A DNA stretch of 64,000 nucleotides, from the NCBI GenBank assembly GCA_963854835.1, contig OY978529.1, positions 13,105,139 to 13,169,138 of the forward strand, written 5' to 3'. The position numbers and the translations under genes are program-made. Under the pieces are notes generated by a model, which searched no databases, was not told the DNA's origin, and was given only the letters and a program-made list of their open reading frames with translations. This document shows positions 11,319-35,412 of the stretch, piece after piece; position 1 is the first letter of the stretch; each line of letters begins with the position of its first letter. The DNA is from Megamerina dolium (Eukaryota > Arthropoda > Insecta > Diptera > Megamerinidae).

Positions 11319-12187
11319 TCAGGCACGTTGAATACGATACACTACGTCATTTATCTTTGCTATAATCTCATATGGTCCTTCCCAATGAGTCTGTAGTTTA
11401 GGGGACAGGCCTTTCTTTCGTTGTGGATTATGAAGCATTACAAGATCTCCTTCATAGAACCCTTTTGAATTTGCTTTCAAGTCATACCTGGCCTTCATCT
11501 TATCGCTTATCATCTGCGACCGCTCTCTGATGAACTGATGTACTTCATCCAACTGTTCCCGCTTTTCGCTAGTATAATTACCTTCGGTTGATCTCGTTGA
11601 TGTTACGACTCCAAATTTTAAATCAGCTGGCAGTCTTAACTCGTTTCCAAAAATTGCCATTGCCGGTGTAGTAGCCGTCGTATCATGTTGTGCGGATCGA
11701 TATGCCATGAGGAACATTGGTATATGTACATCCCAGTCTCTTTGGTATTTATCTACGACTTTTCTCAAATATTCCTCGAAGGTACGGTTAAATCGTTCTA
11801 CCATGCCATCAGATTGTGGATGCAAAGGTGTTGTACGAGTTTTGTATATACCCAGCATACGGCATATCTCTTGGAATACAACTGATTCGAAATTTCGACC
11901 TTGGTCTGAGTGTAACTCCATCGGTACACCAAAACGAGTAACCCATTGGTTGACGAATACATCCGCAACTGTACTAGCTTCCTGATTTGGAATGGGGTAT
12001 ACTTCAGGCCATTTACTGAAGTAATCTATAACCACCAGAACATACTTGTTTCCTGCGTTGCTTATTGGAAATGGCCCAGCTATGTCCATAGCAATTCGCT
12101 CAAATGGAGCACCCACGGTGTATTGGTGCATCTTACCTCGACTTTTCTTAGTGGGACCTTTGGCCATTGCACATTGCTTACACTTCC
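11319..12187 (-). pseudogene. Copy b integrase, C-terminal part, split by copia
   Basis: The open stretch holds the integrase core with all three catalytic positions (MDIAGPF; HSDQGRN; an E in MVERFNR, with 35 residues between the second D and E). It also holds a GPY motif (HWEGPYEI) near the end. The copia element at 12188-17210 separates it from the zinc-binding N-terminus. The predicted M at 12197 lies in copia sequence and is artefactual. It would join viral-type cDNA to the chromosome, but is disrupted here. Confidence 0.9.
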
Positions 12188-12511
12188 TATTGGGCAAACG
12201 CGCTTTTCTTTTCTTTTAAATTCAAACAACCAAAAGCTCTCTTTTAACAGTAACTTCTTTTTATTACTTTTTTATCAGCACAACCCGCCAACTGCGTCTT
12301 ATATTTAAAACGGTCAAAGAAGAAGTAAGGAAATAAACTGAACGAAAAATGAATAATTCATTTACACTCATATACAGATGTATATACATTATATACATTC
12401 ACATAACGCATCTATGTTTGATCAAATGAATTTTTGTATACTCACTGTGATTATTCACAATGAACAAGAACAGTGTTGCATCCTCAAAACAAAAGTTATG
12501 AAAACCCAACA
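12188..12511 (-). repeat. Copia left (3') LTR
   Basis: 324 bp, from TATTGGG to CCCAACA on the plus strand (TGTTGGG...CCCAATA on the element strand). A purine-rich tract, GAGGAGGTG on the element strand at about 12512-12520, abuts it and is the likely plus-strand primer. Confidence 0.9.
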
Positions 12512-12731
12512 CACCTCCTCAAAAATTACATTGATCATTACAAATTAGTTTATCCTAAAATAACAAAATAATATTTCACATTTATATGACGAGTTGTGCA
12601 CTCTGGGGTATTACAATGATATAGTCCAACATTTGTTGCAAGGATTGGGAAAAACCCAGAAAAACCCAATCAGACTACCATGATTTAACCTTAAAATTTT
12701 CATTAGATTATTAATAAATTATATGTTATAT

Positions 12732-15497: not shown

Positions 15498-15556
15498 ATC
15501 TTTACTTTGAATTTGTAAAAATTTTCTTTTGCTAATGTGTCCTAACCTCTCATGTA

Positions 15557-16882
15557 CTAACGATAGTTATTATTATATGATGTATATATTTTATTACATA
15601 ATGTAAAATCAATATATGGTACGTTATAAATACCTTTGTTTTCAAAAACTACTTCACCATTTTTAGCGACTTTGACACCACCTGTATGAAATTCAATAGT
15701 CATCCCAGAATCTTGCATCTTTTTAACAGAAAGTAAATTTTCTGGAATATCACGGCAAAACAGAACATCCTCTAGAGTAATCGGGTTTTGAAAATTGTTG
15801 TACAGCCTCACTATGCCTTTCTTTGTTGCGTACACGTATTCACCACACTTTGCAACTGCGATTTCCACTGGCGGCTCTAATTCAATACATTCAGTGAACA
15901 TTTTGTCATCGTTTATCAAGTGGTCATAGGCGCCAGAATCTAAAATGAAAGATTCGCCATTTTCTTTACGACTTGCCACACCACGTCTCATCATGAACGC
16001 GAATCCTCTGTCTTGCTGAGCAACTGCAATTTGAACCGTTTTTGACTTTTCTGTATTTTGGTTCTTCAAAACCTTTCTATACGTATAGCAGTCCTTTTTA
16101 ACATGACCTATTTTTCCACAATGGTGACACTTTATTTTTGTTTTAAAGTTATTTTTGAAGTATTTATGCTTGTATTTATTTTTAAAATTATATGGTGTTG
16201 TTTTGTGAACGTTTTGTGAAATAGTCCCTACGGCTTGTAACACTTTGACACTGGTATCTCTATCAGCACTTCTTAACTTGATTTCATGATCAAGCAATCT
16301 ATTTTTCACAAATGCTAATGTTAAGTTATCTTCAGATAATGTTTCAATCGCAGTTATAACTCCGTCATAAGACGATGGTAAAGTAAGTAGCAAATGTGAC
16401 ACCTTGTCCATCTCTTCGATCTTAGCTCCCGAAGCTAACAGCTCAGTCATCAAATCATCAAAAACATTAAAATGATTCAATAGCTGTGATTCACTTTTCA
16501 ATTTCAATGACAATAACTTCTTCCGTACCGCCAATTGCGTTGCTAAACTCTTTCGTTCATATATCGTATCCAAATTTCTGAAAATTTGTTTAGCAGTACT
16601 TTCATTGCTTGCAAAGCCAAGAAAAGAGTCACTCAGGAATTCAATAATTAAACTTTTTGCATTTCTTTCAGTTTTCTTCCATCCTTCATCAGGATCCTCC
16701 GGCGCACTTTCATCAATAACCTTCAGAGCGTCGATTTCAGCCAAAACTGCTCTGACTCGAAACTTCCAGATTCCATACTTCTCGCCGCAGAAAGGAACAA
16801 TATTTCGTTTTACTTTTTCCATGCTTCTTTCAGTTGCTGCTGCAGTTTGGTTACTGTTAGTTAAGGCGTAGTCTGGGCCCAT
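15557..16882 (-). CDS. Copia Gag and protease
   Basis: 441 residues. Gag capsid region, a CCHC zinc knuckle ([14 protein letters not shown]) near residue 255, and an aspartic protease with [12 protein letters not shown] near residue 315. The first Met lies inside the primer-binding site; by comparison with copia the second Met (MEKVKRN, at about 16820) is more likely the true start. The frame stops just before the integrase zinc-binding segment. Reading the next frame restores HERLGHISKRK, so a single-base indel near 15560 separates it from Pol. This may be a recent mutation or a sequence error. Confidence 0.9.
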
Positions 16883-16886
16883 AACC
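16873..16886 (-). promoter_or_regulatory. Copia primer-binding site for an initiator tRNA-Met half-molecule
   Basis: GGTTATGGGCCCAG lies directly after the 5' LTR on the element strand. It is complementary to the anticodon-arm region of initiator tRNA-Met (CTGGGCCCATAACC) rather than to a tRNA 3' end. Priming from an internal tRNA fragment is an established trait of copia. Confidence 0.88.
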
Positions 16887-17210
16887 TATTGGGCAAATGC
16901 GCTTTTCTTTTCTTTTAAATTCAAACAACCAAAAGCTCTCTTTTAACAGTAACTTCTTTTTATTACTTTTTTATCAGCACAACCCGCCAACTGCGTCTTA
17001 TATTTAAAACGGTCAAAGAAGAAGTAAGGAAATAAACTGAACGAAAAATGAATAATTCATTTACACTCATATACAGATGTATATACATTATATACATTCA
17101 CATAACGCATCTATGTTTGATCAAATGAATTTTTGTATACTCACTGTGATTATTCACAATGAACAAGAACAGTGTTGCATCCTCAAAACAAAAGTTATGA
17201 AAACCCAACA
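16887..17210 (-). repeat. Copia right (5') LTR
   Basis: 324 bp, practically identical to the left LTR. It ends at CCCAACA, followed by the CTTCC duplication at 17211-17215 and then copy b integrase sequence. Confidence 0.9.
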
Positions 17211-19870
17211 CTTCCGAATCCAATCAGCGACATGGTCATGACATCCAACCCAATAAAATCGTTTCTTTATTTTCTCGACGGTTTTGGTGATTCCCAAATG
17301 CCCTCCACTGGAGGCATTGTGATACTCAGCTATCACTTCATTTATTCTTGCCTTGGGTACCACTAGAAGATCATAAGTGATTTTTCCATCTTCACTTTCC
17401 CATGTTCGGAATAAACATCCGTCTCGTAAGCGCTTTGCCACTGCGCCCAGTATGCCTTTGCTATTGGACTCTCTTTAACCATTTCTTGCCAATCTGGACG
17501 TATGCCCTGCTCCTTGTATTCCATAATCTTTACGAGATCTGGGTCGTTCCGCTGATCTTCTTGCACTCGTTCGGTGGTCCATGACTCCTCCGGCAATATA
17601 TTCGTAAGTCGTATGTCGACAATGTGCTCCTTGCTTTCCACTCGAGAACAATGTTTACATTCCATTTTGCAAGGACGACGAGATAGAGCATCCGCGTTGC
17701 CGTGATGTCCTCCTTTACGATGTTCGATGGTAAAATCATAACTCTGCAGCCTTTCAATCCAGCGCGCCAATTGTCCTTCTGGGTTTTTAAATTGGAATAA
17801 CCACCTTAGCGATGAGTGGTCAGTTCGTAGATGAAATGACTGTCCGTACAAGTATTTATGAAAATACTTTACACATTCCAGTATTGCGAGTAACTCTCTT
17901 CGAGTGACACAGTAGTTTCTTTCTGGCTTCGACAGGATTTTACTGTAGTATGCTATTACTTTTTCTTGCCCACCTATGATCTGAGAGAGCACACCACTTA
18001 TTCCATAGCCACTCGCATCTGTATCCAACACAAACTTTTGACCAGGTACTGGATACGCTAATAATGGTGCTGAACAGAGTTTTTCTTTCAGCTGTTCGAA
18101 TGCTTTCTGTTGGTCCTCGCCCCACACAAATGGTTTGTTCTTTCTTGTCAACTCATGCAGACTGCTGGCGATGTTTGCAAATCCAGGAACAAATCGTCTA
18201 TAGTAGGTGCATAAGCCTAGGAAGCTTCTTAACTCGTGAAGATTCGACGGAATAGGCCATTCTTGTACTGCTGCTACTTTCTCCTCGTCGGTATGTACCC
18301 CTTCTGTTGTTACTTTATGACCAAGATATTTAACTTCTTGCCTAAAGAGTGAACACTTTTTCATATTCAGTTTAAGCCCTGCTGATTGTATACGCTCAAA
18401 TACTTCTTTCAGCTTTTCCAGGTGGTCGTTAAAATCTTTTCCCATCACGATAATGTCATCGAGGTACACCAAGCACGTTTTCCAGTGTAGTCCTCTGAGT
18501 ACACGCTCCATCAAACGTTCAAAAGTAGCTGGCGCATTGCATAAGCCAAATGGCATAACTGTAAATTGCCATAGACCATCGCCAATACTGAAAGCTGTTT
18601 TCTCTTTGTCCTCCTTACCAAGTTCCACTTGCCAGTATCCACTTTGCAAATCAAGAGTTGAGAACCACTTCGCACCAGATAGTGTGTCCAGAGTGTCATC
18701 GATTCTTGGCAGTGGATAGCTGTCTTTTTTCGTAATCTCATTCAGCTTTCTGTAATCCACACAGAATCGAGTACTTCCATCCTTCTTCTTTACCAGCACA
18801 ACTGGTGAACTCCATGGACTCGCTGATGGTTCAATAACACCTTGTTTCTGCATATCGGAAATCAGCTTAATGACTTCGTCTCTTTTGGCCAATGGAACTC
18901 GTCGTGGTGTTTGACGAATTGGTCTAGAATCACCGGTGTCAATGTGATGCTTCACGATGGTTGTTCGTCCTCCAGTTTTTCCATTTGAAGAAAAGATTGA
19001 ACTGTACTTCTCCAATAGTTGTAAAGCCTTTTCTTTTTGCTGGTTGGTAAGCACACCTGCCCATTCTTCCATCTGTGCTTTTATTTCCGCTCTGACAGTT
19101 CCTGATCTTCCACTTTTTATCGACGAACCCTTTTCGCAGTCTACTACGGCAGTAACTTCCTGGCAATGACCAATCACCATTCCTTTCTTCACAACTGTAG
19201 ATGTATTAGTTGGATTTAATATTCGCACAGGTACTATTCCATTTTCTTTAGGTTCCACTAACGTCCTACCAGGTATGATGTTTTTATTTTGTATTTCTTT
19301 ATCTGCTTCCACTAACCACAACTTGCCTGTCCCATCATCCACATTTATCTGTGCCCAAATCACCGCTTCTGATTTTGCTGGAACCTCTTGGCGTTGACAT
19401 GCCAGTACTCGTTTGATGTTCCCACTACGCTTGTAACCGATGTTCAATGGTAGTTCGACATTTGCATAGCGCAGTATCCGTTGATTTAAATCTAACGTAA
19501 ATCCGTTGTCAATCATAAAATCAACACCAATTATTACGTCATCAATGATGTCAGCCACAATGAATTCATGTTCCCACGTGTAATTTCCAATAGATACTCG
19601 TTTCTTTATCTTACCCAGAATTTGTGCATCCTCACAATTTGTGCTGTACGCAATTTTATTGCGTACAGCAACGCAATTAAAGGCATTAAAGGCTCAAACC
19701 TCTTTACCAAATCGCTCTTGATTATAGAATGTGATGCACCAGTGTCCAGGGTTAACATGAATTCCATATTGTCCAATTTTCCATCAATAGTCAAGCTGCT
19801 TGGCACACGCTGTAGTTGTGAAATGTGAATGATGGGGCAACCCACTGTTGGAGTCAGTTCACGCCCCGCT
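17211..19870 (-). pseudogene. Copy b pol: protease, RT, RNase H, integrase N-terminus
   Basis: The first protease half is at 19845-19606 (LDTGASHSII). The next frame, 19558-17363 (731 residues), carries the protease end (DVIIGVDFM), RT (VDYRKLNEIT; LDLQSGYWQV; YLDD box in VYLDDIIVMG) and RNase H (DTDASGYGISGVLSQ; ending GGHHGNADALSR). The integrase HHCC finger (YHNASSGGHLG, then RKC) follows. A 4-base deletion near 17430, relative to copies c and d, shifts the frame. Protease is split between two frames, and the same split is seen in copy a. It is the only copy here with a recognisable complete RT-RNase H. Confidence 0.9.
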
Positions 19871-19893
19871 GAACTGACTCGATTTAGTTTAAC
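19851..19893 (-). promoter_or_regulatory. Candidate -1 ribosomal frameshift signal at the gag-pol junction
   Basis: On the element strand, GTTAAAC (19887-19893) is read as G TTA AAC in the gag frame and is immediately followed by the gag stop TAA. Six bases after the heptamer comes a perfect 11-bp stem (GAGTCAGTTCA, loop GCGGGGCG, TGAACTGACTC). The protease frame is -1 to gag and opens across this point. Slippery heptamer, 5-9 nt spacer and hairpin is the standard layout, and GUUAAAC is a known slippery heptamer. Copy a keeps the motif and hairpin. Confidence 0.75.
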
Positions 19894-21266
19894 GATGGAT
19901 TTGTGTTAGTGGAGCGAGCGCTATCCACCTTATTCTCCTTCTTTTGTCTTCCTGGAGAATTCGATCTTGATCGCTTTCGTCGTAGACGGCAGTCACGCGC
20001 CATGTGTCCTGGTTTGTCGCAAATAAAGCACTTACCAGTAAATTTGTTTTCGCGTCGACCTGTTGTTCTTCCTTCAGGCTGCACTACAGATTTGAATGCC
20101 TGACACACTGCTTCAACCAGATGTACTGTTTCTGTTTCTAGTTGGCGTACCCGTAGCATTGGTCGACACATCAAACTGGCGGCTTCAAACGTCAAGGCAC
20201 TACTGACTGTTTCGGCATAAGTATTCCTTGGTGACATAACTAGGGCACGCTTTGTCTCTCCATCACGTATGCCATCTATGAATGCCTCTATTTTTATTTT
20301 TTCGATGAACTCTTCCGAATTACCGGAGAACGCTAGATGACATAAGCGCTCAATATCGGAAGCGAATTCCTGAAGGCTCTCATTATTCCGTTGCACTCGC
20401 GATCTCAATTCCACTCGATGTAATTGACTCTTGTATTCATTTCCATATTTCCGCTGGAGTGTGTCCATCAGTGATTGGTAGCTACCACGATCTTTCTCTG
20501 AAATCATCTGTAACACTTCGGAAGCATTACCTTTTAATGCGACTATTAAAGCAGCAGTCTTGTCGCTATCATCCCATTGATTCTTCGAAGCGGTTGTCTC
20601 GAATTGAAGCTTGAAGATATTGAATGGCGTGCTTCCGTCAAATGTTGGTGGCTTTAGTTTGATTGTACTTGAATCTCTAATCACTGATGTGGCTGGCCCA
20701 TTTATTTTTAGTTGGTTGAGATCGTGCTGTAATTTCTCGAACTTATCTTCCAAGTCATCTACATGTTCCTTCAGATCCATGACTTTTTCATTAATGGTTC
20801 CGGAAATTTCCTGAGATCTAATCTCAATTCCTTTTTGTAGATTTTCGATGACGTGTTCTTGTCGACCCGAACCTTCTTGAATTTCCATACGCAATTCAGC
20901 CGAATGTTCTTGAAGCTTGTAGTCAATTGTTTTCTGAAATTCTCCCATAGCGTTTTCTTGGCGAGACGCATTTTCTTGTAGCTTCGCATTAATTCCTTGC
21001 AGTTGCTGCTGCTGTTGTTGCATCATGGATTTCATGAGTTCCATTAGTTGACCACTCGAATCTATTTTGCTCTCTTCCTCAGCGTGCACAACTGCTTGTA
21101 TATCGGCTTCCTCAAAGAACTCATGTTCTTCTACATTAATTCCCTTAGCCTCCATAGCTTGCCTCAGCCTCACCAGCAGTTCCGCCTTTGCACCTGATGA
21201 CGATAGATTCATCTCTACCAACAGCTTTTTAAGCTGGTCCACTTTTAGTTGGTCAATTTTCACCAT
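19884..21266 (-). CDS. Copy b Gag with SAP domain, coiled coil and one zinc knuckle
   Basis: 460 residues, complete. The N-terminal 40 residues match a SAP DNA-binding motif (LKVDQLKKLLVEMNLSSSG). Residues ~70-205 are a long heptad-rich coiled coil with QQQQQ. A capsid-like region follows (TFDGSTPFNIFKLQFETTA, LIVALKG), then a CCHC knuckle (CFICDKPGHMARDC) and a basic tail. It would form the retrotransposon particle and package RNA. It starts 8 bases after the primer-binding site. A SAP domain in Gag is unusual and could bind AT-rich matrix DNA (inference). Confidence 0.92.
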   Translation of the reverse strand: MVKIDQLKVDQLKKLLVEMNLSSSGAKAELLVRLRQAMEAKGINVEEHEFFEEADIQAVVHAEEESKIDSSGQLMELMKSMMQQQQQQLQGINAKLQENASRQENAMGEFQKTIDYKLQEHSAELRMEIQEGSGRQEHVIENLQKGIEIRSQEISGTINEKVMDLKEHVDDLEDKFEKLQHDLNQLKINGPATSVIRDSSTIKLKPPTFDGSTPFNIFKLQFETTASKNQWDDSDKTAALIVALKGNASEVLQMISEKDRGSYQSLMDTLQRKYGNEYKSQLHRVELRSRVQRNNESLQEFASDIERLCHLAFSGNSEEFIEKIKIEAFIDGIRDGETKRALVMSPRNTYAETVSSALTFEAASLMCRPMLRVRQLETETVHLVEAVCQAFKSVVQPEGRTTGRRENKFTGKCFICDKPGHMARDCRLRRKRSRSNSPGRQKKENKVDSARSTNTNPSLN

Positions 21267-21273
21267 CTTTACA

Positions 21274-21293
21274 GAATCCCACTTCTGACACCA
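21274..21293 (-). promoter_or_regulatory. Copy b primer-binding site, tRNA-Leu
   Basis: TGGTGTCAGAAGTGGGATTC, two bases inside the 5' LTR, is complementary to the 3' end of dipteran tRNA-Leu (…CCCACTTCTGACA plus CCA, from memory). It is the same in copies c (26077-26096) and d (33204-33223). A tRNA-Leu primer is typical of the Mdg3/blastopia/micropia group. Confidence 0.82.
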
Positions 21294-21295
21294 AT

Positions 21296-21732
21296 TGTTA
21301 CGTTTTTATTCTGTGAACGTTCAATTCTATTTGAATTACCTTGTTCGATCACTGGATTCTGTTAATGATAACTGCAACACTTATTTTATACAACTATATA
21401 CAGCAACAATTTATTTAATAAACTCTATTTACAATCAACTCTGTTTATAATCAACTATTTACAATAACACTTTAATGTACTAGCAACTTTTGCCTCTGTA
21501 TAGATGTTTGCGCATTCACGTTCGGAATTCGATTGATTTTCCTCCTCAACACTGGCTCTATTTATACTCTGTTGGCAACACCCCAGAATCTTCCTTTATC
21601 GAGATTCTTCTCTTCCTTTCTTGTTGGCTTGTTCAGGTTATCGCTCATTTCTTTTTGTTGACATTCGTTTCGATGCTGCCAATAGTGTCAGTCACAATAG
21701 TGATGAGTAATCAACAATCGATACTCGTTACA
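21296..21732 (-). repeat. Copy b, right (5') LTR, 437 bp
   Basis: TGTTACG to CTCGTTACA. It differs from copy c's LTRs by only one or two bases but from b's own left LTR at many positions. It is followed by the ATAT duplication at 21733-21736. Confidence 0.9.
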
Positions 21733-22258: not shown

Positions 22259-22633
22259 TGCCGGGTTGATGGCTTAATGTAGGGTGTGGCTATTTGCACT
22301 TCTTGGAAAGCAGCTCCGTTAGTTCGAAAATAGCTGAGCTTATTTCCTGTTTTGATTTGAGAGAACTTTTAATATTAAGATGTGAACTGATATTATAGTC
22401 AAGATAGGTTCTTCCGTTTTTCTTATGAGAGTTTTCAGAGATAGAGGTTATTATCGTGGGAGAATGGTCGGAAGATAGCTCCAAAGAGGAATTCACGCGG
22501 GAGTGTACATTCTTCAACCCTTTAGTGATTGCAAAATCAAAAAGCTCTGCAGTCTTCCGTCTATCTGATGACCAATATGTGGGGTTAACATTGGATAAAA
22601 CGTCAAGACCCAGCGCAGGAGTTATTAAACTAT
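22259..22633 (-). mobile_element. Jockey-clade LINE relic, endonuclease C-terminal part
   Basis: The minus strand reads NPTYWSSDRRKTAELFDFAI and SSDHSPTIIT, matching the endonuclease of the intact LINE at 60454 (PTYWPTDKRK; SSDHSPTVI). The 5' portion of the same relic lies at 26536-28345 on the other side of Ty3/gypsy copy c, with CTAT duplicated at 22630-22633 and 26536-26539. It is truncated at 22259. Confidence 0.85.
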
Positions 22634-23070
22634 TGTTACGTTTTTATTCTGTGAACGTTTAATTCTATTTGAATTACCTTGTTCGATCACTGGATTCTGT
22701 TAATGATAACTGCAACACTTATTTTATACAACTATATACAGCAACAATTTATTTAATAAACTCTATTTACAATCAACTCTGTTTATAATCAACTATTTAC
22801 AATAACACTTTAATGTACTAGCAACTTTTGCCTCTGTATAGATGTTTGCGCATTCACGTTCGGAATTTGATTGATTTTCCTCCTCAACACTGGCTCTATT
22901 TATACTCTGTTGGCAACACCCCAGAATCTTCCTTTATCGAGATTCTTCTCTTCCTTTCTCGTTGGCTTGTTCTGGTTATCGCTCATTTCTTTTTGTTGAC
23001 ATTCGTTTCGATGCTGCCAATAGTGTCAGTCACAATAGTGATGAGTAATCAACTATCGATACTCGTTACA
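22634..23070 (-). repeat. Copy c, left (3') LTR, 437 bp
   Basis: TGTTACG to CTCGTTACA. It is almost identical to c's right LTR (26099-26535), for example AATTTG versus AATTCG, so this is a recent insertion. It is followed by the polypurine tract at 23071-23083. Confidence 0.93.
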
Positions 23071-23081
23071 CTGCCCTCCTC

Positions 23082-24704
23082 TTAACCTTGTTCGTCCCGA
23101 ACAAGTTTTTCTACTTCCCCTCGATATGGCGCAAGTCGCTCCAAGTGCACTACTTTAAACTTTGCTCTTTTATTCCAGGCACGTTGAATACGATACACTA
23201 CATCATTTATCTTTGCTATAATCTCATATGGTCCTTCCCAATGAGTCTGTAGTTTAGGGGACAGGCCTTTCTTTCGTTGTGGATTATGAAGCATTACAAG
23301 CTCTCCTTCATAGAACCCTTTTGAATTTGCTTTCAAGTCATACCTGGCCTTCATCTTATCGCTTATCATCTGCGACCGCTCTCTGATGAACTGATGTACT
23401 TCATCCAACTGTTCCCGCTTTTCGCTAGTATAATTTCCTTCGGTTGATCTCGTTGGTGTTACAACTCCAAATTTTAAATCAGCTGGCAGTCTTAACTCGT
23501 TTCCAAAAATTGCCATTGCCGGTGTAGTAGCCGTCGTATCATGTTGTGCGGATCGATATGCCATGAGGAACATTGGTATATGTACATCCCAGTCTCTTTG
23601 GTATTTATCTACGACTTTTCTCAAATATTCCTCGAAGGTACGGTTAAATCGTTCTACCATGCCATCAGATTGTGGATGCAAAGGTGTTGTACGAGTTTTG
23701 TATATACCCAGCATACGGCATATCTCTTGGAATACAATTGATTCGAAATTTCGACCTTGGTCTGAGTGTAACTCCATCGGTACACCAAAACGAGTAATCC
23801 ATTGGTTGACGAATACATCCGCAACTGTACTAGCTTCTTGATTTGGAATGGGGTATACTTCAGGCCATTTACTGAAGTAATCTATAACCACCAGAACATA
23901 CTTGTTTCCTGCGTTGCTTATTGGAAATGGTCCAGCTATGTCCATAGCAATTCGCTCAAATGGAGCACCCACGGTGTATTGGTGCATCTTACCTCGACTT
24001 TTCTTAGTGGGACCTTTGGCCATTGCACATTGCTTACATTTCCGAATCCAATCAGCGACATGGTCATGACATCCAACCCAATAAAATCGTTTCTTTATTT
24101 TCTCGACGGTTTTGGTGATTCCCAAATGCCCTCCAGTGGAGGCATTGTGATACTCAGCTATCACTTCATTTATTCTTGCCTTGGGTACCACCAGCAGATC
24201 ATAAGTGATTTTTCCATCTTCACTTTCCCATGTTCGGAATAAACATCCGTCTCGTAAGTGCAGGCTTTGCCACTGCGCCCAGTATGCCTTCGTTATTGGA
24301 CTCTCATTAGCCATTTCTTGCCAATCTGGACGTATGCCCTGCTCCTTATATTCCATAATCTTTGCGAGATCTGGGTCGTTCCGCTGATCTTCTTGAACTC
24401 GTTCGGTGGTCCATGACTCTTCCGACAATACATTCGTAAGACGTAGGTTAACAATGTGATTCTGGCTTCCTACCCGCGAGCAATGTTTGCTATCTACGGT
24501 GCAAGTACGATGATATGGATTATCAGCCTTACCACGATGAATGACATCACGATCTTCCTTTCGTTGTCCTGGTGAATTCGATCTTTGTTGCTTGCGTCGT
24601 AGACGACAATTACGCGACATGTGTCCTCTTTGATCGCATATGAAGCACTTACCGGCAAATTTATTTTTGTGTTGATTCCTTGTTCTTTGATTGATTGCAA
24701 TCAC
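23082..24704 (-). CDS. Copy c: zinc knuckle fused to integrase (no protease, RT or RNase H)
   Basis: 540 residues open. It begins within Gag's C-terminus (second knuckle CFICDQRGHMSRNC) and passes directly into VIHRGKADNPYHR. That stretch aligns with the very end of RNase H in copy b (GGHHGNADALSRRPC). A complete integrase follows: HHCC finger, D-D-35-E core and GPY motif, ending KLVRDEQG. The whole protease-RT-RNase H block is missing. The same junction exists in copy d at a different genomic site, so the deletion predates both insertions. The true start is upstream in gag (24661-26069), which is frameshifted here. Confidence 0.9.
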   Translation of the reverse strand: MIAINQRTRNQHKNKFAGKCFICDQRGHMSRNCRLRRKQQRSNSPGQRKEDRDVIHRGKADNPYHRTCTVDSKHCSRVGSQNHIVNLRLTNVLSEESWTTERVQEDQRNDPDLAKIMEYKEQGIRPDWQEMANESPITKAYWAQWQSLHLRDGCLFRTWESEDGKITYDLLVVPKARINEVIAEYHNASTGGHLGITKTVEKIKKRFYWVGCHDHVADWIRKCKQCAMAKGPTKKSRGKMHQYTVGAPFERIAMDIAGPFPISNAGNKYVLVVIDYFSKWPEVYPIPNQEASTVADVFVNQWITRFGVPMELHSDQGRNFESIVFQEICRMLGIYKTRTTPLHPQSDGMVERFNRTFEEYLRKVVDKYQRDWDVHIPMFLMAYRSAQHDTTATTPAMAIFGNELRLPADLKFGVVTPTRSTEGNYTSEKREQLDEVHQFIRERSQMISDKMKARYDLKANSKGFYEGELVMLHNPQRKKGLSPKLQTHWEGPYEIIAKINDVVYRIQRAWNKRAKFKVVHLERLAPYRGEVEKLVRDEQG

Positions 24705-26069
24705 GCGCTATATGCCCTCGTTTGTCGCAAATGAAGCACTTACCATTAAATTTGTTTTCGCTTCGACCTGCTCTTGCTTCAGGCTGAACTACTGATTTTA
24801 CTGCCTGACGCACTGCTTCAACCAGATCTGCTGTTTCTGTTTCTAGTTGGCGTACCCGTGGCATTGGTCGACACATCAAACTGGCGGCTTCAAATGTCAA
24901 GGCACTACTAACTGTTTCGGCATATGTACTCCTTGATGACATTACTAGGGCGTGCTTAGTGCTCCATAACGTATTCCGTCTATGAATGCCTCTATTTTAA
25001 TTTTTTCGACGAACTCTTCCGAATTACCGGAGAACGCAAGATGACATAAGCGCTCAATATCGGAAGCGAATTCCTGAAGGCTCTCATTACTCCGTTGCAC
25101 TCGCGATCTCAATTCCACTCGATGTAATTGACTCTTGTATTCATTTCCATATTTTCGCTGGAGTGTGTCCATCAGTGACTGATAGCTACCACGATCTTTC
25201 TCTGGAATCATCTGTAACACCTCGGAAGCATTACCTTTTAATGCGACTATTAAAGCAGCAGTCTTGTCGCTATCATCCCATTGATTCTTCGAAGCTGTTG
25301 TCTCGAATTGAAGCTTGAAGATATTGAATGGCGTGCTTCCGTCAAATGTTAGTGGCTTTAATTTGATTGTACTTGAATCTCTAATCACTGATGTGGCTGG
25401 TCCATTTATTTTTAGTTGATTGAGTTCGTGCTGTAATTTCTCGAACTTATCTTCCAAGTCATCTACATGTTCCTTTAAATCCGTGACCTTTTCATTAATG
25501 GTTCCGGAAATTTCCTGAAATCTATGTTCAATTCCTTTTTGTAGATTTTCGATGACGTGTTCTTGTCGAGCCGAACCCTCTTGAATTTCCATACGCAATT
25601 CAGCCGAATGTTCTTGAAACTTGGAGTCAATTGTTTTCTGGAACTCTCCCATAGCGTTTTCTTGACGTACCGAATGTTCTTGAAACTTGGAGTCAATTGT
25701 TTTCTGGAACTCTCCCATAGCGTTTTCTTGACGTACCGAATGTTCTTGAAACTTGGAGTCAATGCGAGACGCATTTTCTTGTAACTTCGCATTAATTCCT
25801 TGCAGTTGCTGCTGCTGTTGTTGCATCATGGATTTCATGAGTTCCATTAGTTGACCACTCGAATCTATCTTGCTTTCTTCCTCAGCGTGTACGACTGCTT
25901 GTATATCGGCTTCCTCGAAGAACTCATGTTCTTCTACGTTAATTCCCTTAGCCTCCATAGCTTGCCTCAGCCTCACCAGCAGTTCCGCCTTTGCACCTGA
26001 TGACGATAGATTCATCTCTACCAACAGCTTTTTAAGCTGGTCCACTTTTAGTTGGTCAATTTTCACCAT
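24661..26069 (-). pseudogene. Copy c gag, two frameshifts
   Basis: Gag from the SAP domain (26069) through coiled coil and capsid is open to 24945, where a small deletion shifts the frame. 24942-24661 continues it to the first knuckle (CFICDKRGHIARDC), then a second shift leads to the 24704-23082 frame. The coiled coil has an extra tandem copy of a 66-bp (22-residue) unit (FQEHSVRQENAMGEFQKTID), so the linker length differs from copies b and d. Confidence 0.88.
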
Positions 26070-26098
26070 CTTTACAGAATCCCACTTCTGACACCAAT

Positions 26099-26535
26099 TG
26101 TTACGTTTTTATTCTGTGAACGTTTAATTCTATTTGAATTACCTTGTTCGATCACTGGATTCTGTTAATGATAACTGCAACACTTATTTTATACAACTAT
26201 ATACAGCAACAATTTATTTAATAAACTCTATTTACAATCAACTCTGTTTATAATCAACTATTTACAATAACACTTTAATGTACTAGCAACTTTTGCCTCT
26301 GTATAGATGTTTGCGCATTCACGTTCGGAATTCGATTGATTTTCCTCCTCAACACTGGCTCTATTTATACTCTGTTGGCAACACCCCAGAATCTTCCTTT
26401 ATCGAGATTCTTCTCTTCCTTTCTCGTTGGCTTGTTCTGGTTATCGCTCATTTCTTTTTGTTGACATTCGTTTCGATGCTGCCAATAGTGTCAGTCACAA
26501 TAGTGATGAGTAATCAACTATCGATACTCGTTACA
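26099..26535 (-). repeat. Copy c, right (5') LTR, 437 bp
   Basis: TGTTACG to CTCGTTACA, two bases from the tRNA-Leu primer site at 26077-26096, followed by the CTAT duplication at 26536-26539. Confidence 0.93.
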
Positions 26536-28345
26536 CTATATAAGGAGTTATTAAACTATATAAGTTATTAAGCTATATTTTTTTTGTGTGAGGTGAGCTT
26601 CTGACATAAGCATATATTAGGATTGTTCTTTGAGAAACAGATTAATTTTTATGTTAACTTACGCCATTTGCATTCCAGTGGCAGATTTTTAAAGCACTCA
26701 TTGCTTCAATAGGAGGGATTGCAAAAGCATATTCTGGTTTCTGCGTTGAACACATGAATTGTGTCATATTTTCTATAAACAATTGCATTGTTTTCTCAAG
26801 CTAACTATTCTCTTCACTAGAAGTTATTGCCGAAGAAGTTCCTTTGAAAATATTTGGGTCAGTCAGACAGTCTCACTGAGGGGTATACTTTTAGCTGGAT
26901 TCGATTGAGGCATAAGTTTCTGTTTAATTCTGACGTATACAGAACAGCCTATATAGTTGGTTGTGTGATTTTCACCGCAATTACTGCATTTTTTTTTATT
27001 CTGGAGTCTTCCTTTGGCTTGGTGCATAATTGAGACTTATGTAGGTCACCACAGATAACACATATACTGGGGAGTGTACAATATTCCTTGGTGAGTCCAA
27101 ATTCATGTCAATTAGCGCATTCAACTGGACCCAACCTCTTACGGGGCTCTTCTACTGAGATTTTCCAGTGTAACAAATAGCGTAGACTATAAATAGAATG
27201 AGATTCACCTTTCTTCAAAGCCACATTTTCCGGCTCTAGCTCAACTCTGTAAGGGACAATGGAGCTTTGTTCTTGTTTCGTTTATTGTACACCAATCGTA
27301 CTTTAAAACCTTCTTGGCGTAGGGCGTCGAGAATATCGTTTGTTTCCACGTCAGGTTCAATGCCATTTATTATCACAATCAGACCTTTCTCACTCTTGAG
27401 TTGGTATGTGTATAACTTTTTTTTAAATTTTTTCAAAATACTCCACTTACGGTATCCAGGTTCAGAGTAAAATTGAATTTTTGTCCCTTGTATGATACCT
27501 CTCTTGCAAACAGGTGCTACTTTGGGCTAAGTAAGCAATTGAGAAGTCGAGCTCTCTCTCGAAGAACGAAAACTACACCCTACAAGTCTTTCGTCCTAAC
27601 ATATGGCGCTGAAGCCTGCACAATTTCCACCTCGGATGAACGAATGCTTGGAGTTTTCGAGAGAAAAGTCCTACGGAAGATCTTTGGACCTATTTGCATT
27701 GGTGGCGAGTATCGAATAAGGTACAACCATGAGCTGTACGAGCTGTATGTCGATATTGACATAGTAAAGCACATCAAAATCCAGCGGCTGCGCTGGCTAG
27801 CGAATGGAAGAACACGCTCCAGCTAAGAAGGTGTTATATTCGGAACCCGCTGGAGGACGACGCAGAAGAGGAAGACCTAACTTCCGTTGGAAATACCAAG
27901 TACTGGAGAACCTGACGGCGCTTGGAATTTCTAACTGCCGCCAGCTAGCGAAGAACAGAGATGGCTGGCTACTGGCTAAGCATGTTATATTCGGCCTAAA
28001 TCGATATTCGGTTGTTATGGCCACATAAGTAAGTAAGTAATGATACCTTTAGTTATTGGAACAACATACGATTCATTATGATGCTTAGATACATTATTGC
28101 TTGGAGTTTGTTTTCAAGCAACCTGTGTCAATTTTTCACCGTATTGATTTGGAGTTATTTGTGTTCGTATTTGTTACTAATGCGGGAGAATTATAAATAC
28201 TGCTATGTGTTATACTCACATTAGTAGAAGAGGGAGAAGGATACTTATTAATTTTTATTTTAGGGTCTGAAGCAGCAACAGACGAAATTTTTATCGTTAA
28301 AAGATGCAGCGTTCGGACGACGGGGAGAAACACTCATCGTTGTTT
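26536..28345 (-). mobile_element. Jockey-clade LINE relic, ORF1 and start of ORF2
   Basis: The minus strand has an ORF1 start near 28340 (MSVSPRRPN, compare MSVQRSPLR in the intact element). A PRE_C2HC-like part at 27436-27236 (LYTYQLKSEKGLIVIINGIEP) and a decayed zinc-knuckle region near 27150-26950 follow. ORF2 starts at about 26703 (MSALKICHWNANG). It is the same family as the intact LINE at 58731. It is interrupted by an RTE-like insertion (27501-28039) and by copy c. Part of the endonuclease between the two halves is deleted. Confidence 0.85.
27501..28039 (+). mobile_element. 5'-truncated RTE-like LINE fragment
   Basis: The plus strand encodes the end of a reverse transcriptase (DERMLGVFERKVLRKIFGP; then IRYNHELYEL; IQRLRWLANG) with one frameshift. 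It ends with GRRRRGRPNFRWKYQVLENL and a TAAG-repeat tail at 28026-28039. The 9-bp duplication ATGATACCT at 27492-27500 and 28040-28048 gives exact borders. Removing the insert restores the ORF1 reading of the surrounding jockey relic (VVPITKG then IIQGTKIQFYSE). Confidence 0.88.
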
Positions 28346-29539: not shown

Positions 29540-29786
29540 ATATGCATACGTTGGCTTAAGCCAGCTGCCAAACTATACTGCACTTAACACAAATTTTCGT
29601 CAAGTTTCGTCAAATGCCATTTGCTTAAACAAAGCGAAACTGATTACACATTCCGTACGGAAACTGCTGTTTGTGAATTGTTTACGTATTAAATATAAAG
29701 TAAACAAATTCGCAATGGACCTAAAAGGCGCAAAAACATCTTTTAAATTTAATTAAAAGACGAAAAGAGAATGTGTCTATTCATAT
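29540..29786. other. Spacer between solo LTR and copy d
   Basis: About 250 bases of unremarkable AT-rich DNA. No open frame, repeat end or RNA gene was recognised. Confidence 0.5.
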
Positions 29787-30224
29787 TGTTACGTTTTTAT
29801 TTTGTGAACGTTTAATTCTATTTGAATTACCTTGTTCGATCACTGGATTCTGTTAATGATAACTGCAACACTTATTTTGTACAACTATATACAGCAACAA
29901 TTTATTTAATAATCTCTATTTACAATCAACACTGTTTACAATCAACTATTTACTATAACACTTAAATGTACTTGCAACTTTTGCCTCTGTATCAATGTTT
30001 TCGCAATCACGTTCGGAAGTAGATTGATTGTCAATTCTCAACACTGGCTCTATTTATACTCTGATGGCCACACCCCAGAATCTTCCTTTATCGAGATTCT
30101 TCTCTTCCTTTCTCGTTGGCTTGTTCTGGTTATCGCTTATTTCTTTTTGTTGACATTCGTTTCGATGCTGCCAATAGAGTCAGTCACAATAGTGATGAGT
30201 AATCAACTATCGATACTCGTTACA
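29787..30224 (-). repeat. Copy d, left (3') LTR, 438 bp
   Basis: TGTTACG to CTCGTTACA, with the TATA box at 30051-30058 (minus strand) and AATAAA near its element-strand 3' end. ATAT at 29783-29786 is repeated at 35317-35320 after the right LTR. The polypurine tract follows at 30225-30237. Confidence 0.93.
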
Positions 30225-30262
30225 CTGCCCTCCTCTTAACCTTGTTCGTCCCGAACAAGTTT

Positions 30263-33196
30263 TTATACTTCCCCTCGATATGGCGCAAGTCGCTCCAAGT
30301 GCACTACTTTAAACTTTGCTCTTTTATTCCAGGCACGTTGAGTGCGATGCACTACGTCATTTATCTTTGCTATAATCTCATATGGTCCTTCCCAATGAGT
30401 CTGTAGTTTAGGGGACAGGCCTTTCTTTCGTTGTGGATTATGAAGCATTACAAGCTCTCCTTCATAGAACCCTTTTGAATTTGCTTTCAAGTCATACCTG
30501 GCCTTCATCTTATCACTTATCATCTGCGACCGCTCTCTGATGAACTGATGTACTTCATCCAACTGTTCCCGCTTTTCGCTAGTATAATTTCCTTCGGTTG
30601 ATCTCGTTGGTGTTACAACTCCAAATTTTAAATCAGCTGGCAGTCTTAACTCGTTTCCAAAAATTGCCATTGCCGGTGTAGTAGCCGTCGTATCATGTTG
30701 TGCGCATCGATATGCCATGAGGAACATTGGTATATGTACATCCCAGTCTCTTTGGTATTTATCTACGACTTTTCTCAAATATTCCTCGAAGGTACGGTTA
30801 AATCGTTCTACCATGCCATCAGATTGTGGATGCAAAGGTGTTGTACGAGTTTTGTATATACCCAGCATACGGCATATCTCTTGGAATACAACTGATTCGA
30901 AATTTCGACCTTGGTCTGAGTGTAATTCCATCGGTACACCAAAACGAGTAATCCATTGGTTGACGAATACATCCGCAACTGTACTAGCTTCTTGATTTGG
31001 AATGGGGTATACTTCAGGCCATTTACTGAAGTAATCTATAACCACCAGAACATACTTGTTTCCTGCGTTGCTTATTGGAAATGGTCCAGCTATGTCCATA
31101 GCAATTCGCTCAAATGGAGCACCCACGGTGTATTGGTGCATCTTACCACGACTTTTCTTAGTGGGACCTTTGGCCATTGCACATTGCTTACACTTCCGTA
31201 TCCAATCAGCGACATGGTCATGGCATCCAACCCAATAAAATCGTTTCTTTATTTTCTCGACGGTTTTGGTGATTCCCAAATGCCCTCCACTGGAGGCATT
31301 GTGATACTCAGCTATCACTTCATTTATTCTTGCCTTGGGTACCACTAGCAGATCATAAGTGATTTTTCCATCTTCACTTTCCCATGTTCGGAATAAACAT
31401 CCGTCTCGTAAGTGCAGGCTTTGCCACTGCGCCCAGTATGCCTTTGCTATTGGACTCTCATTAGCCATTTCTTGCCAATCTGGACGTATGCCCTGCTCCT
31501 TGTATTTCATGATCTTTGAGAGATCTGGGTCGTTCCGTTGATCTTCTTGAACTCGTTCGGTGGTCCATGACTCTTCCGACAATACATTCGTAAGACGTAG
31601 GTTAACAATGTGATTCTGGCTTCCTACCCGCGAACAATGTTTGCTATCTACGGTACAAATACGATGATATGGAGTATCAGCTTTACCACGATGAATGACA
31701 TCACGATCTTCCTTTCGTTGTCCTGGTGAATTCGATCTTTGTTGCTTGCGTCGTAGACGACAATTACGCGCCATGTGTCCTCTTTGATCGCATATAAAGC
31801 ACTTACCAGCAAATTTATTTTTGTGTTGATTCCTTGTTCTACCTTTAGGCTTCATATTCGATTGATTGCAATCACGAGCTATATGCCCTCGTTTGTCGCA
31901 AATGAAGCACTTACCATTAAATTTGTTTTCGCGTCGACCTGCTCTTACTTCAGGCTGAACTACTGATTTTACTGCCTGACGCACTGCTTCAACCAGATGT
32001 ACTGTTTCTGTTTCTAGTTGGCGTACCCGTAGCATTGGTCGACACATCAAACTGGCGGCTTCATACGTCAAAGCACTACTGACTGTTTCGGCATAAGTAT
32101 TTCTTGGTGACATGACTAGGGCACGCTTTGTCTCTCCATCACGTATGCCATCTATGAAAGCCTCTATTTTGATTTTTTCGATGAACTCTTCCGAATTACC
32201 GGAGAACGCTAGATGACATAAGCGCTCAATATCGGAAGCGAATTCCTGAAGGCTCTCATTACTCCGTTGCACTCGCGATCTCAATTCCACACGATGTAAT
32301 TGACTCTTGTATTCATTTCCATATTTCCGCTGGAGGGTGTCCATCAGTGACTGATAGCTACCACGATCTTTCTCTGGAATCATCTGTAACACGTCGGAAG
32401 CATTACCTTTTAATGCGACTATTAAAGCAGCAGTCTTGTCGCTATCATCCCATTGATTCTTCGAAGCGGTTGTCTCGAATTGAAGCTTGAAGATATTGAA
32501 TGGCGTGCTTCCGTCAAATGTTGGTGGCTTTAATTTGATTGTACTTGAATCTCTAATCACTGATGTGGCTGGTCCATTTATTTTTAGTTGATTGAGTTCG
32601 TGCTGTAATTTCTCGAACTTAACTTCCCAGTCGTCGACATGTTCCTTCAGCTTATCATCCAACTCATCCACGTGTTCTTTCAGCTCTGTAACTTTGTCAT
32701 TAATAGCTCCGGAAATTTCCTGAAATCTAAGTTCAATTCCTTTTTGTAGATTTTCGATGACGTGTTCTTGGCGAGCCGAATGTTCTTGAAGCTTGGAGTC
32801 AATTGTTTTCTGGAACTCTCCCATAGCGTTTTCTTGACGTACCGAATGTTCTTGAAACTTGGAGTCAATGCGAGACGCATTTCCTTGAATTTCCGTACGT
32901 AATTCACTAATAACGCCCTCTTGTCGAGACGAACTTTCTTGTAACTGTTGCATCATGGTTTTCATGAACTCCATGAGTTGACCACTCGAATCTATTTTGA
33001 TCTCTACCTCAGCGTGCACAACTGCTTGTATATCGGCTTTCTTGAAGAACTCATGTTCTTCTACATTAATTCCCTTAGCCTCCATAGCTTGCCTCAGCCT
33101 CACCAGCAGTTCCGCCTTTGCACCTGATGACGATAGATTCATCTCTACCAACAGCTTTTTAAGCTGGTCCACTTTTAGTTGGTCAATTTTCACCAT
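30263..33196 (-). CDS. Copy d: intact Gag-integrase fusion protein, 977 residues
   Basis: Single open frame with no protease, RT or RNase H. Domains: SAP motif 3-41; coiled coil ~60-205; capsid-like 215-350; zinc knuckles C430-C433-H438-C443 and C466-C469-H474-C479; junction about 500-514 (VIHRGKADTPYHRIC, the residual end of RNase H). Integrase follows, with HHCC finger H632-H639-C669-C672, catalytic D701-D761-E797 (35 spacing) and GPY at 937-939. The gag stop and frameshift signal seen in copy b are gone, so every Gag would carry an integrase. The start is the conserved MVKIDQLK shortly inside the primer site. No protease remains to separate the parts. It presumably borrows RT in trans (inference). 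Confidence 0.93.
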   Translation of the reverse strand: MVKIDQLKVDQLKKLLVEMNLSSSGAKAELLVRLRQAMEAKGINVEEHEFFKKADIQAVVHAEVEIKIDSSGQLMEFMKTMMQQLQESSSRQEGVISELRTEIQGNASRIDSKFQEHSVRQENAMGEFQKTIDSKLQEHSARQEHVIENLQKGIELRFQEISGAINDKVTELKEHVDELDDKLKEHVDDWEVKFEKLQHELNQLKINGPATSVIRDSSTIKLKPPTFDGSTPFNIFKLQFETTASKNQWDDSDKTAALIVALKGNASDVLQMIPEKDRGSYQSLMDTLQRKYGNEYKSQLHRVELRSRVQRSNESLQEFASDIERLCHLAFSGNSEEFIEKIKIEAFIDGIRDGETKRALVMSPRNTYAETVSSALTYEAASLMCRPMLRVRQLETETVHLVEAVRQAVKSVVQPEVRAGRRENKFNGKCFICDKRGHIARDCNQSNMKPKGRTRNQHKNKFAGKCFICDQRGHMARNCRLRRKQQRSNSPGQRKEDRDVIHRGKADTPYHRICTVDSKHCSRVGSQNHIVNLRLTNVLSEESWTTERVQEDQRNDPDLSKIMKYKEQGIRPDWQEMANESPIAKAYWAQWQSLHLRDGCLFRTWESEDGKITYDLLVVPKARINEVIAEYHNASSGGHLGITKTVEKIKKRFYWVGCHDHVADWIRKCKQCAMAKGPTKKSRGKMHQYTVGAPFERIAMDIAGPFPISNAGNKYVLVVIDYFSKWPEVYPIPNQEASTVADVFVNQWITRFGVPMELHSDQGRNFESVVFQEICRMLGIYKTRTTPLHPQSDGMVERFNRTFEEYLRKVVDKYQRDWDVHIPMFLMAYRCAQHDTTATTPAMAIFGNELRLPADLKFGVVTPTRSTEGNYTSEKREQLDEVHQFIRERSQMISDKMKARYDLKANSKGFYEGELVMLHNPQRKKGLSPKLQTHWEGPYEIIAKINDVVHRTQRAWNKRAKFKVVHLERLAPYRGEV

Positions 33197-33203
33197 CTTT
33201 ACA

Positions 33204-33223
33204 GAATCCCACTTCTGACACCA
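33204..33223 (-). promoter_or_regulatory. Copy d primer-binding site, tRNA-Leu
   Basis: TGGTGTCAGAAGTGGGATTC, two bases from the 5' LTR, identical to copy b. Its preservation, with the polypurine tract and both LTRs, means the element keeps every cis signal needed for reverse transcription in trans. Confidence 0.85.
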
Positions 33224-33326
33224 ATTGTTACGTTTTTATTTTGTGAACGTTTAATTCTATTTGAATTACCTTGTTCGATCACTGGATTCTGTTAATGATA
33301 ACTGCAACACTTATTTTGTACAACTA

Positions 33327-34977
33327 CAGTGGCTCACAGCTTATTTCGTACAGTGTATATATTTTTATGTACATGGCTGTAACATCGAAACTAAAAAACT
33401 TATCGATAAGTTTTGAATGTAGATGTCTGTGTATGTGTTTAGTAAACCTAATAAGAAAACGGAGAACCCCAAAAATTTTTCTTTTTGTTATGCAAGAGAG
33501 AAAAACTATTGATCAGCTGATTTTCAGCTCACATCTTATTTCGTACACAAACTTCAATGTAAGTAAGTTTCATTCTGCCGCGCAGTTACAAAGTTTTTTT
33601 GAATTGTATGAGTTTTTGGACCTTTTTAACTATTATAACAATTTTTATTATTATTATTTTAAATAGTTAAAGTGCTGTAAATTAAACATTTAGCTTTATG
33701 GGTCATCGTACAACGATGGAACAGGGTAAACTGGTAATTAACCATTTTAGGAAAGGTCAGAGTGTGCGAAAAATTGCTGAAATGACAAATTTAAGTGCCT
33801 CAACTGTCCAATACATCATTCAACGCTTCGTTCGCGAAAATCGGTTGGAGAACAAGGGCAGAGAAGCACCTAATAAGATTTTCAACACATCAGACGAGCG
33901 TTATATTGTACGAAAAATTAAGAAAAATCCAAAGTTATCCGCTCCGAAGTTGGCTGCAGAGGTTCAGCGTGAAATAGGAAAATCATCCAGTGCTGAAACT
34001 GTCCGACGTGTGCTGCGCAATCATGACTTGAACGGTCGAGTAGCCCGAAAGAAACCATTCATTTCGAAAATGAATATACAACGCCGACTTGACTTCGCCA
34101 AAGAGCATATTATTAATACTCCTGCGTTCTGGAATACCGTTATTTTCGCGGATGAGTCTAAGTTTAATATTTTTGGCTCGGACGGAATGTCATATGTTTG
34201 GCGTAAAGCTAATACCGAGCTAAACAAGGAGAACCTTAAGCCCACAGTGAAGCATGGTGGCGGTAGCGTGATGGTTTGGGCCTGTATGTCAGCAGCCGGA
34301 GTAGGTGAATTGGTTTTTATTGAGGGAACAATGGACAAAATGAAGTACCTCGAGATTCTGAAAAACAATTTACTTCAAAGTGCAGACAAACTGGGTTTGC
34401 GGGAAGAATTTCGGTATTACCAAGATAATGACCCAAAACATAAATCTGGGATATTGCAATCTTGGCTTATTTGAACTGCTCACACTTGATGTCTCCACCA
34501 CCACAGTCACCTGACATGAATGTGATTGAAAATCTTTAGTCTATTTTGGACAATAAAATAAGAACACACAAGATTTCTAATAAGCAAGACCTAAAGAAGG
34601 TACTGATGGAGGAATGGAAAAAAATCACACCAGACATCACTCAAAAATTGGTGGATTCAATGCCAAGTAGACTCCAGGCTGTCATTAACGCTAAGGGATG
34701 TCATACTAAATATTAAAATCAACTTACTTTGTTTTTAGTTTGAACTTAAAGAGACTGTACGAAATAAGCTGTGACATGAATTTTCCTATTTTTTTCTTAT
34801 TTTATTTTTTTATAGTGTCAAACACTAAAATTTTGAAAAAGTAAATTTTGGAAAATAAAAAACAAACCTTCCTTTCAAAAATGGCATTTATATTTTGTTC
34901 AAATTTTTGCTATATTAGGAATTACGACTGCAGCAATTTTTAAACTGTCACTGTACGAAATAAGCTGGGAGCCACTG
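33327..34977 (+). mobile_element. Tc1-like DNA transposon, 1651 bp, IR/DR ends
   Basis: Terminal repeats start CAGTGGCTCACAGCTTATTT and match the complement of the right end over 29 bases with one mismatch, flanked by TA at 33325-33326 and 34978-34979. A second, inner copy of the motif (CTTATTTCGTACA) lies at about 33534 on the left and about 34757 (inverted) on the right. Each end thus has two transposase-type repeats, the IR/DR layout of some Tc1 elements. It carries one transposase gene, now damaged. Confidence 0.92.
33698..34716 (+). pseudogene. Tc1-like transposase, frameshift and nonsense mutation
   Basis: The first 258 codons are open: paired helix-turn-helix DNA-binding region (residues ~10-120; VRKIAEMTNLSASTVQYII), first catalytic D152 (IFADESKFN) and second D243 (YYQDNDPKHKS). 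A one-base indel near 34468 shifts the frame. The next frame continues NCSHLMSPPPQSPDMNVIEN with the catalytic E at a spacing that fits DD34E. TAG at 34537-34539 replaces the usual tryptophan of ENLW. The protein would otherwise end at 34716 at a normal Tc1 length (~340). It would cut and paste the element but is inactive here. Confidence 0.92.
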
Positions 34978-35412
34978 TATATACAGTAACAATTTATTTA
35001 ATAATCTCTATTTACAATCAACACTGTTTACAATCAACTATTTACTATAACACTTAAATGTACTTGCAACTTTTGCCTCTGTATCAATGTTTTCGCAATC
35101 ACGTTCGGAAGTAGATTGATTGTCAATTCTCAACACTGGCTCTATTTATACTCTGTTGGCAACACCCCAGAATCTTCCTTTATCGAGATTCTTCTCTTCC
35201 TTTCTCGTTGGCTTGTTCTGGTTATCGCTTATTTCTTTTTGTTGACATTCGTTTCGATGCTGCCAATAGAGTCAGTCACAATAGTGATGAGTAATCAACT
35301 ATCGATACTCGTTACAATATGATAAAACGAAAGTATTTTCTCCATCTCAAAAAGGACAGAAAAACCAATTTTCCTTCTATTTCGGATTATTTCTCCAACT
35401 GAATAGGAGCAT

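Follow-up and report, generated by a model that had tools for sequence, protein, structure and literature searches.

A Ty3/gypsy-type element of Megamerina dolium with a Gag-integrase fusion as its sole gene, likely mobilised by full-length partners

In a 64,000-nucleotide stretch of the genome of the fly Megamerina dolium (assembly GCA_963854835.1, contig OY978529.1, positions 13,105,139 to 13,169,138 of the forward strand; hereafter the window), an element designated copy d was identified as a long terminal repeat (LTR) retrotransposon of the Ty3/gypsy type whose sole gene encodes a fusion of Gag and integrase. The fusion element is likely semi-autonomous, being mobilised by full-length partners of the same family with which it likely shares particles. 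This reading is drawn from sequence comparisons of copy number, recent insertions, exchange between the two forms and substitution patterns. The features of copy d are the following (window coordinates):

30263..33196, minus strand: fused Gag-integrase frame, an open reading frame (ORF) of 977 codons (977 residues)
31712..33196, minus strand: Gag part with SAP domain, coiled coil, capsid and two CCHC knuckles, from a domain search
31643..31711, minus strand: junction tail of 23 codons, with gapless homology to the final RNase H residues of the full-length form
30266..31642, minus strand: integrase part with zinc domain, D,D-35-E core and C-terminal domain, from domain and structure matches
33208..33223, minus strand: primer-binding site adjoining the 5′ LTR, with identical letters in the 42 occurrences listed
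30225..30237, minus strand: polypurine tract before the 3′ LTR
29787..30224, minus strand: 3′ LTR
33226..33326, minus strand: inner piece of the 5′ LTR
34978..35316, minus strand: outer piece of the 5′ LTR, separated from the inner piece by a DNA transposon
about 33327..34977, no strand assigned: Tc1/mariner-type element inside the 5′ LTR, with TA on both sides and a transposase-like ORF at 33698-34474 (plus strand)
29783..29786, no strand assigned: target-site duplication ATAT, 3′ side
35317..35320, no strand assigned: target-site duplication ATAT, 5′ side

The fused frame takes up nearly all of the space between the two LTRs (about 438 bases each). An earlier note, made from the letters of the window, had described it as a 977-residue protein with SAP domain, coiled coil, capsid, two zinc knuckles and integrase; the ORF is indeed open, and Pfam found SAP (residues 5-38), Retrotrans_gag (260-352), two CCHC stretches, and the zinc domain (619-676), core (694-790) and C-terminal domain (937-972) of integrase. 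Contrary to that note, the frame lies on the minus strand and is read from 33196 down to 30263. The claim that protease, reverse transcriptase (RT) and RNase H are missing was borne out, as none of these families was found by Pfam in the 977-residue protein of copy d. In a comparison with solved structures, the best PDB match of the integrase part was the Ty3 Gag-Pol chain (E 3.4e-31). An LTR pair, a primer site, a polypurine tract and a short target-site duplication were found, as is typical of Ty3/gypsy-type LTR elements, and in the full-length partner the integrase is positioned after RNase H, which is the Ty3/gypsy order. The LTRs, primer site and polypurine tract had also been claimed before and are present together with the ATAT duplication, except that the 5′ LTR is split by the Tc1/mariner-type insert. 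The coiled coil of Gag varies by units of 66 bases or 22 residues (window 25604-25763 and 32712-32953), and six loci from the protein search were split near this region of length variants.

Two relatives of copy d in the window are the following:

22632..26537, minus strand: fusion copy c, with the junction as in d, its own duplication ATAG and a broken gag frame
10776..21732, minus strand: full-length-type copy b (gag, protease-RT-RNase H, integrase), interrupted by a copia element (about 12186-17211)

In the fusion form the second knuckle is followed by RLRRKQQRSNSPGQRK, by 23 codons which align gaplessly to the RNase H tail of copy b, in agreement with the RNase H remnant noted earlier, and then by the integrase. 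Missing from the fusion are protease, RT, the slippery site, the stop of gag and nearly all of RNase H, while LTRs, primer site and polypurine tract are shared with the full-length form. The gag of full-length copies in the same genome ends with GTTAAAC-TAA or GTTAAAC-TAG. This heptamer, a known slippery sequence, immediately precedes the stop codon of gag in 11 of 12 full-length copies whose gag end was located (copies a and b included; no end was found in L025, L032 and L038), and the twelfth carries GTTAAAG. In copy b the pol frame is -1 relative to gag with an overlap of 22 bases. The proposed bypass of gag stop and frameshift is supported by these findings, the stretch being absent from the fusion.

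The join of gag and tail is identical in all 36 distinct fusion copies that were read (37 rows, with d read twice), which supports the proposal that one deletion form has spread in this genome. For copy c the same junction and an own duplication were confirmed, but not an intact frame. Copy b had been regarded as a usable full copy, which it is not, as the copia element lies within its integrase gene and its protease and RT are found in separate frames.

Two CCHC knuckles are present in 33 of the 37 fusion rows (second knuckle region at about 31757-31912 of the window), whereas six of the seven full-length rows contain one and the old copy a contains none; the two forms therefore differ by more than one deletion. 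Gag knuckles bind RNA, and at a guess the second one could favour packaging of the fusion element's own RNA. An origin by splicing was checked by eye: a donor-like AAG/GTGGAT was found at the gag end of copy b, and no AG was seen at the start of the RNase H part in the fusion, the ends being blurred by divergence.

Pattern searches of the genome, in which up to three mismatches were allowed and the reversed patterns served as control, gave 759 matches for the fusion-type tail (the pattern leaves out the first codon of the RNase H part and therefore counts tails, not joins), 1550 for the RT motif of the full-length form and 2388 for an integrase motif common to both forms. No reversed pattern was matched, which excludes chance for the 759 tails. 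Since the sum of the first two counts (2309) is near the number of shared integrase matches, the fusion form accounts for about one third of the family copies. A domesticated host gene, present in single or few copies without LTRs, is ruled out by the number of matches, the LTRs and the duplications.

Both forms have recent insertions. The LTRs were compared in 28 fusion copies and showed no mismatch in 13 of them (11 of 24 in a first set and two of four in a second), although 18 of the 24 had been picked by protein similarity to d and are hence biased to young copies; the oldest of those not picked by similarity has 27 mismatches in 442. In four full-length copies the LTRs differ at 3, 1, 0 and 0 positions, with a 16-base gap in the last of them, and the upstream flank of one of the four fails to match. 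Three of 12 full-length copies, inspected in part, contain a long open pol frame that includes RT and integrase.

Matching 4-bp flanks were found in 27 of the 28 fusion copies (23 of 24 and all four), and the exception sits in a tandem array. Seventeen of these matches are clean, with duplications other than ATAT including ATAC, GTAT, CTAT and ATAG, eight have a second LTR of the family directly on one side, and two lie in AT repeats. The probability that segmental duplication or an assembly artefact created the copies is negligible. Some copies do occur in tandem arrays with shared LTRs, and the eight that abut a family LTR would also fit; however, the fusion copies are found on different chromosomes with their own 4-bp duplications, and no two of the 28 share both flanks outside LTR or AT-repeat sequence, so that this explanation is refuted by the flanks. 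The earlier concern that only two copies exist and stem from a segmental duplication is dispelled by the same data and by the 759 matches.

The tandem arrays of fusion copies have a spacing of about 3.36 kb (G000:C1 at 75419997, 75423361 and 75426725; L029). In eight of the 28 fusion copies (L007, L010, L011, L012, L016, L019, L023 and L026), a second LTR of the family is adjoining or no more than 60 bases away, as if ATAT sites there were favoured.

The two forms are differentiated almost exclusively at the junction. In the first 60 bases after it, the mean difference is 0.213 between forms and 0.039 within forms, corresponding to a fixation index (Fst) of 0.82. The following 60-base bins give 0.53, 0.14 and 0.07, and from there to the end of the integrase the values range from -0.02 to 0.13. 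Bins of the LTR range from -0.06 to 0.11 and those of the capsid from -0.05 to 0.09, except for the last two by the knuckles (0.17 and 0.28). The values of 0.03-0.21 in N-terminal gag are weak, as only three full-length copies were available. Trees point in the same direction: the label of the form changes once in the first 130 bases after the junction (6-12 times in 200 shuffles), but 11 times in the rest of integrase segment IN1, nine times in IN2, seven times each in IN3 and the capsid and eight times in the LTR, all within the shuffled range. The forms are thus cleanly separated only in the 130 bases after the junction and mixed elsewhere as under shuffled labels.

One copy, L041 (G000:C1:331000-335200), is a visible recombinant of the two forms. 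It has a stretch of the single-knuckle full-length type up to the knuckle and is of the fusion type beyond; its two LTRs show no difference over 438 bases, and its own target-site duplication is GTAT. Since the forms mix outside the junction, they likely share particles and undergo template switching. Template switching between co-packaged RNAs, with the deletion acting as a local barrier, is the simplest reading of the mixing. Gene conversion between DNA copies is a possible source as well, but a less likely one for insertions so young.

Synonymous divergence between fusion and full-length copies decreases from 0.60 in the tail through 0.39, 0.30, 0.12 and 0.07 along consecutive parts of IN1 to 0.04 in IN2. 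The peak at the junction would mean either that the fusion long predates the copies now present or that another family was the source of its tail. The latter, in which the junction stretch came from a diverged family when the fusion was formed, concerns the origin only and is compatible with a semi-autonomous partner; the divergence would then be no measure of age. We consider a foreign donor possible but rather doubtful. The contrast between tail and IN2 fits it as well as it fits age, whereas the gradual fall-off on the integrase side and the rise near the knuckles on the gag side are those of an old join eroded by exchange, and no unfused copy carrying the fusion-type tail was found among the 36 distinct copies read.

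Selective constraint was estimated as omega, the ratio of nonsynonymous to synonymous substitution, with a codon bootstrap, in a less biased set of fusion copies from which those picked by similarity were excluded (15-17 copies per segment, c and d included). Omega was 0.21 (0.13-0.30) for the capsid and 0.29 (0.16-0.52), 0.27 (0.14-0.55) and 0.19 (0.08-0.53) for the three parts of the integrase. For the 24 junction codons it was 1.42 (0.43-6.4), and 2.33 (0.79-9.0) when all copies were used. N-terminal gag gave 0.27 in the less biased set and 1.40 (0.34-6.4) in L002-L020, where variation is almost absent. By these values, there are signs of constraint in capsid and integrase but not in the junction linker, which speaks against the neutral substitution in all copies that had been considered earlier. 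The triad D701-D761-E797, located as the earlier note had stated, is kept in all 34 fusion copies in which it was read. Among the presumed zinc ligands, H632, C669 and C672 are kept in 36 of 36 copies and H639 in 33 of 36. No stop was found in 39 of the 47 best-scoring loci, a biased sample, despite the length variants of the coiled coil.

Several observations weigh against the semi-autonomous reading. A few bins far from the junction still show an Fst of 0.12-0.13 (permutation p 0.01, and 0.01-0.02 among the far bins), and RNA template switching and DNA gene conversion may both fit the pattern of exchange. The stretch that is not exchanged is short, and omega among fusion copies is 0.71 in its first 60 bases. 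In the less biased set, the interval of the junction tail (from 0.43) overlaps those of the integrase (up to 0.52-0.55), and the whole frame is present in only four of 15 copies, with ten broken and one open to the edge of its stretch. Because the flanks were exchanged with full-length copies, the low omega of capsid and distal integrase could also have been imported from these.

Some of this would suit a passive deletion element, comparable to a defective interfering genome, which is copied in trans while its protein stays idle and its open frame is inherited or re-imported. The freely exchanged flanks, the ten broken frames and the omega of 0.71 are in its favour. Nevertheless, a passive element seems unlikely, as the linker has an omega of 1.4-2.3 compared to 0.2-0.3 for capsid and integrase, albeit with overlapping intervals in the less biased set. 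Moreover, the fusion copies show an omega of 0.12 (bases 60-120) and 0.26 (bases 120-180) in a stretch beyond the junction that still has an Fst of 0.14-0.53, and most of the best-scoring loci, biased as they are, lack a stop.

For the preferred semi-autonomous element, we infer complementation by full-length copies, which would supply RT, RNase H and protease in trans. The RNAs of both forms would be packaged together, as the mixing suggests, and template switching would mix their sequences. A fusion frame without slippery site and gag stop is predicted to yield Gag and integrase one to one, and the predicted protein would enter the shared particles and work there. By supplying both proteins to shared particles, the element would let selection keep its frame and would be a partner rather than a dead deletion. 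The conserved frame and the exchange fit such a contributing partner at least as well as the competitor or parasite of full copies that the earlier note had considered.

In yeast, a truncated Gag of Ty1 acts in copy-number control. Similarly, a Gag-integrase protein without protease and RT might poison the particles of full-length copies and control their number. The likely sharing of particles and the proportion of about one in three copies would agree with this; however, recent insertions in both forms mean that any suppression is not complete, and interference of this kind appears quite improbable.

By protein similarity, the nearest named relatives come from flies, and a Bactrocera dorsalis gene model with 923 residues and the same architecture over its full length is the best match. 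Six such clusters of this species were among the matches listed, on contigs of 93.3, 74.7 and 42.5 Mb; the first contains a complete integrase core and the others are shorter. In five of the six, the knuckle is followed by NPSK..QP and TEHRK, and the homology to RNase H therefore starts within about one residue of its place in the Megamerina dolium element. An RT-bearing protein of 1151 residues (P0015, from a 4,994-base ENA contig, species not stated) is 98% identical to the Bactrocera model in the integrase and reads YDFE-TEHRKG at this site. Bactrocera probably has its own pair of fusion and full-length forms, and its fusion probably has a separate and younger origin, since its tail is nearly identical to that of the RT-bearing P0015.

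In the pseudoscorpion Cordylochernes, six models were found with joins of at least three other kinds in almost the same position, and further candidates were found in Haematobia and Aromia. Two gene models without RT, P0006 of Lucilia sericata (SAP, protease, integrase core) and P0123 of Eurosta solidaginis (SAP, protease, of the integrase only the C-terminal domain), are possibly a Gag-protease-integrase version. All of these cases, including Bactrocera, are gene-model proteins, whose joins may stem from splicing during annotation. When three fusion proteins were used for a profile search, 15 proteins were obtained, among which new fusions were few, and none of 54 stretches in IMG/VR that matched a pattern encodes a relative.

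TR-GAG elements of plants are LTR elements with a gag frame and without RT; to our knowledge they have no integrase. An assignment to this class or to the Gag-only type of RLG_Quinta is ruled out by the complete integrase with its DDE triad. RLG_Quinta of wheat is a non-autonomous partner of RLG_Cereba in the Gypsy superfamily, for which cross-mobilisation was inferred and exchange between Quinta lineages by template switching was proposed; like the fusion element, it combines an intact gag frame with conserved LTR ends and a conserved primer site (PMC11302176). Quinta encodes Gag and a domain of unknown function and no integrase, whereas the fusion element has a complete in-frame integrase and its nearest named relatives in insects (PMC11302176). 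RLG_Sabrina_SA, also of wheat, was called 'semi-autonomous' and, with partial coding capacity and no RT, is likewise a supposed contributor of protein; but it carries Gag and protease without integrase and has hardly any homology to its partner, whereas the fusion element carries an integrase without protease and has LTR, capsid and integrase in common with its partner (PMC9744471).

Bactrocera LOC125777350 and its kin resemble the fusion element in SAP, capsid, knuckle and RNase H tail, and LOC125777350 also in the complete integrase, but these models are only about 50% identical to it, have one knuckle and are known from gene models alone. The fusion element has two features of a semi-autonomous LTR partner of the Quinta or Sabrina_SA kind, namely an intact gag without RT, and LTR ends, primer site and active period shared with an RT-bearing partner. 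Among the titles and abstract starts listed by searches of an open-access library, none concerned a Gag-integrase element without RT. The combination of Gag and a complete integrase without RT is a variant of the known helper-dependent LTR elements, none of which was found described with an integrase.

Further repeats are present in the window. The copia-type element nested in the integrase gene of copy b (12186-17211) has LTRs that are 99.7% alike. Copy a (7538-10623) is an older, diverged relative with remnants of gag and pol in which the GTTAAAC site is retained. A pair resembling a long interspersed nuclear element (58844-63102) consists of an open PRE_C2HC ORF1 and an open endonuclease-RT ORF2. 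A 298-base unit recurs in two short arrays (35894-36712 and 56485-57322) that lie about 20 kb apart inside a longer shared repeat.

Tentatively, and with less confidence than for the mobilisation by partners, Gag-integrase elements may be the recurrent, selected half of a two-part retrotransposon, with the same cut from knuckle to RNase H tail made more than once (Megamerina dolium, Bactrocera, the pseudoscorpion). One half would provide equal amounts of capsid and integrase with no need of a frameshift, and the other the copying enzymes; template switching would unite the two, and the island at the junction would keep them distinct. The helper-dependent LTR elements found described retain nothing, Gag, or Gag and protease. 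With an element that retains Gag and integrase, makes up about one third of its family and has inserted recently, naturally occurring copies allow the question of cooperation or parasitism to be tested directly. The junction island serves as an internal ruler here: the partners appear to recombine at almost every other position, which would, without an experiment, be evidence for co-packaging at the population level.

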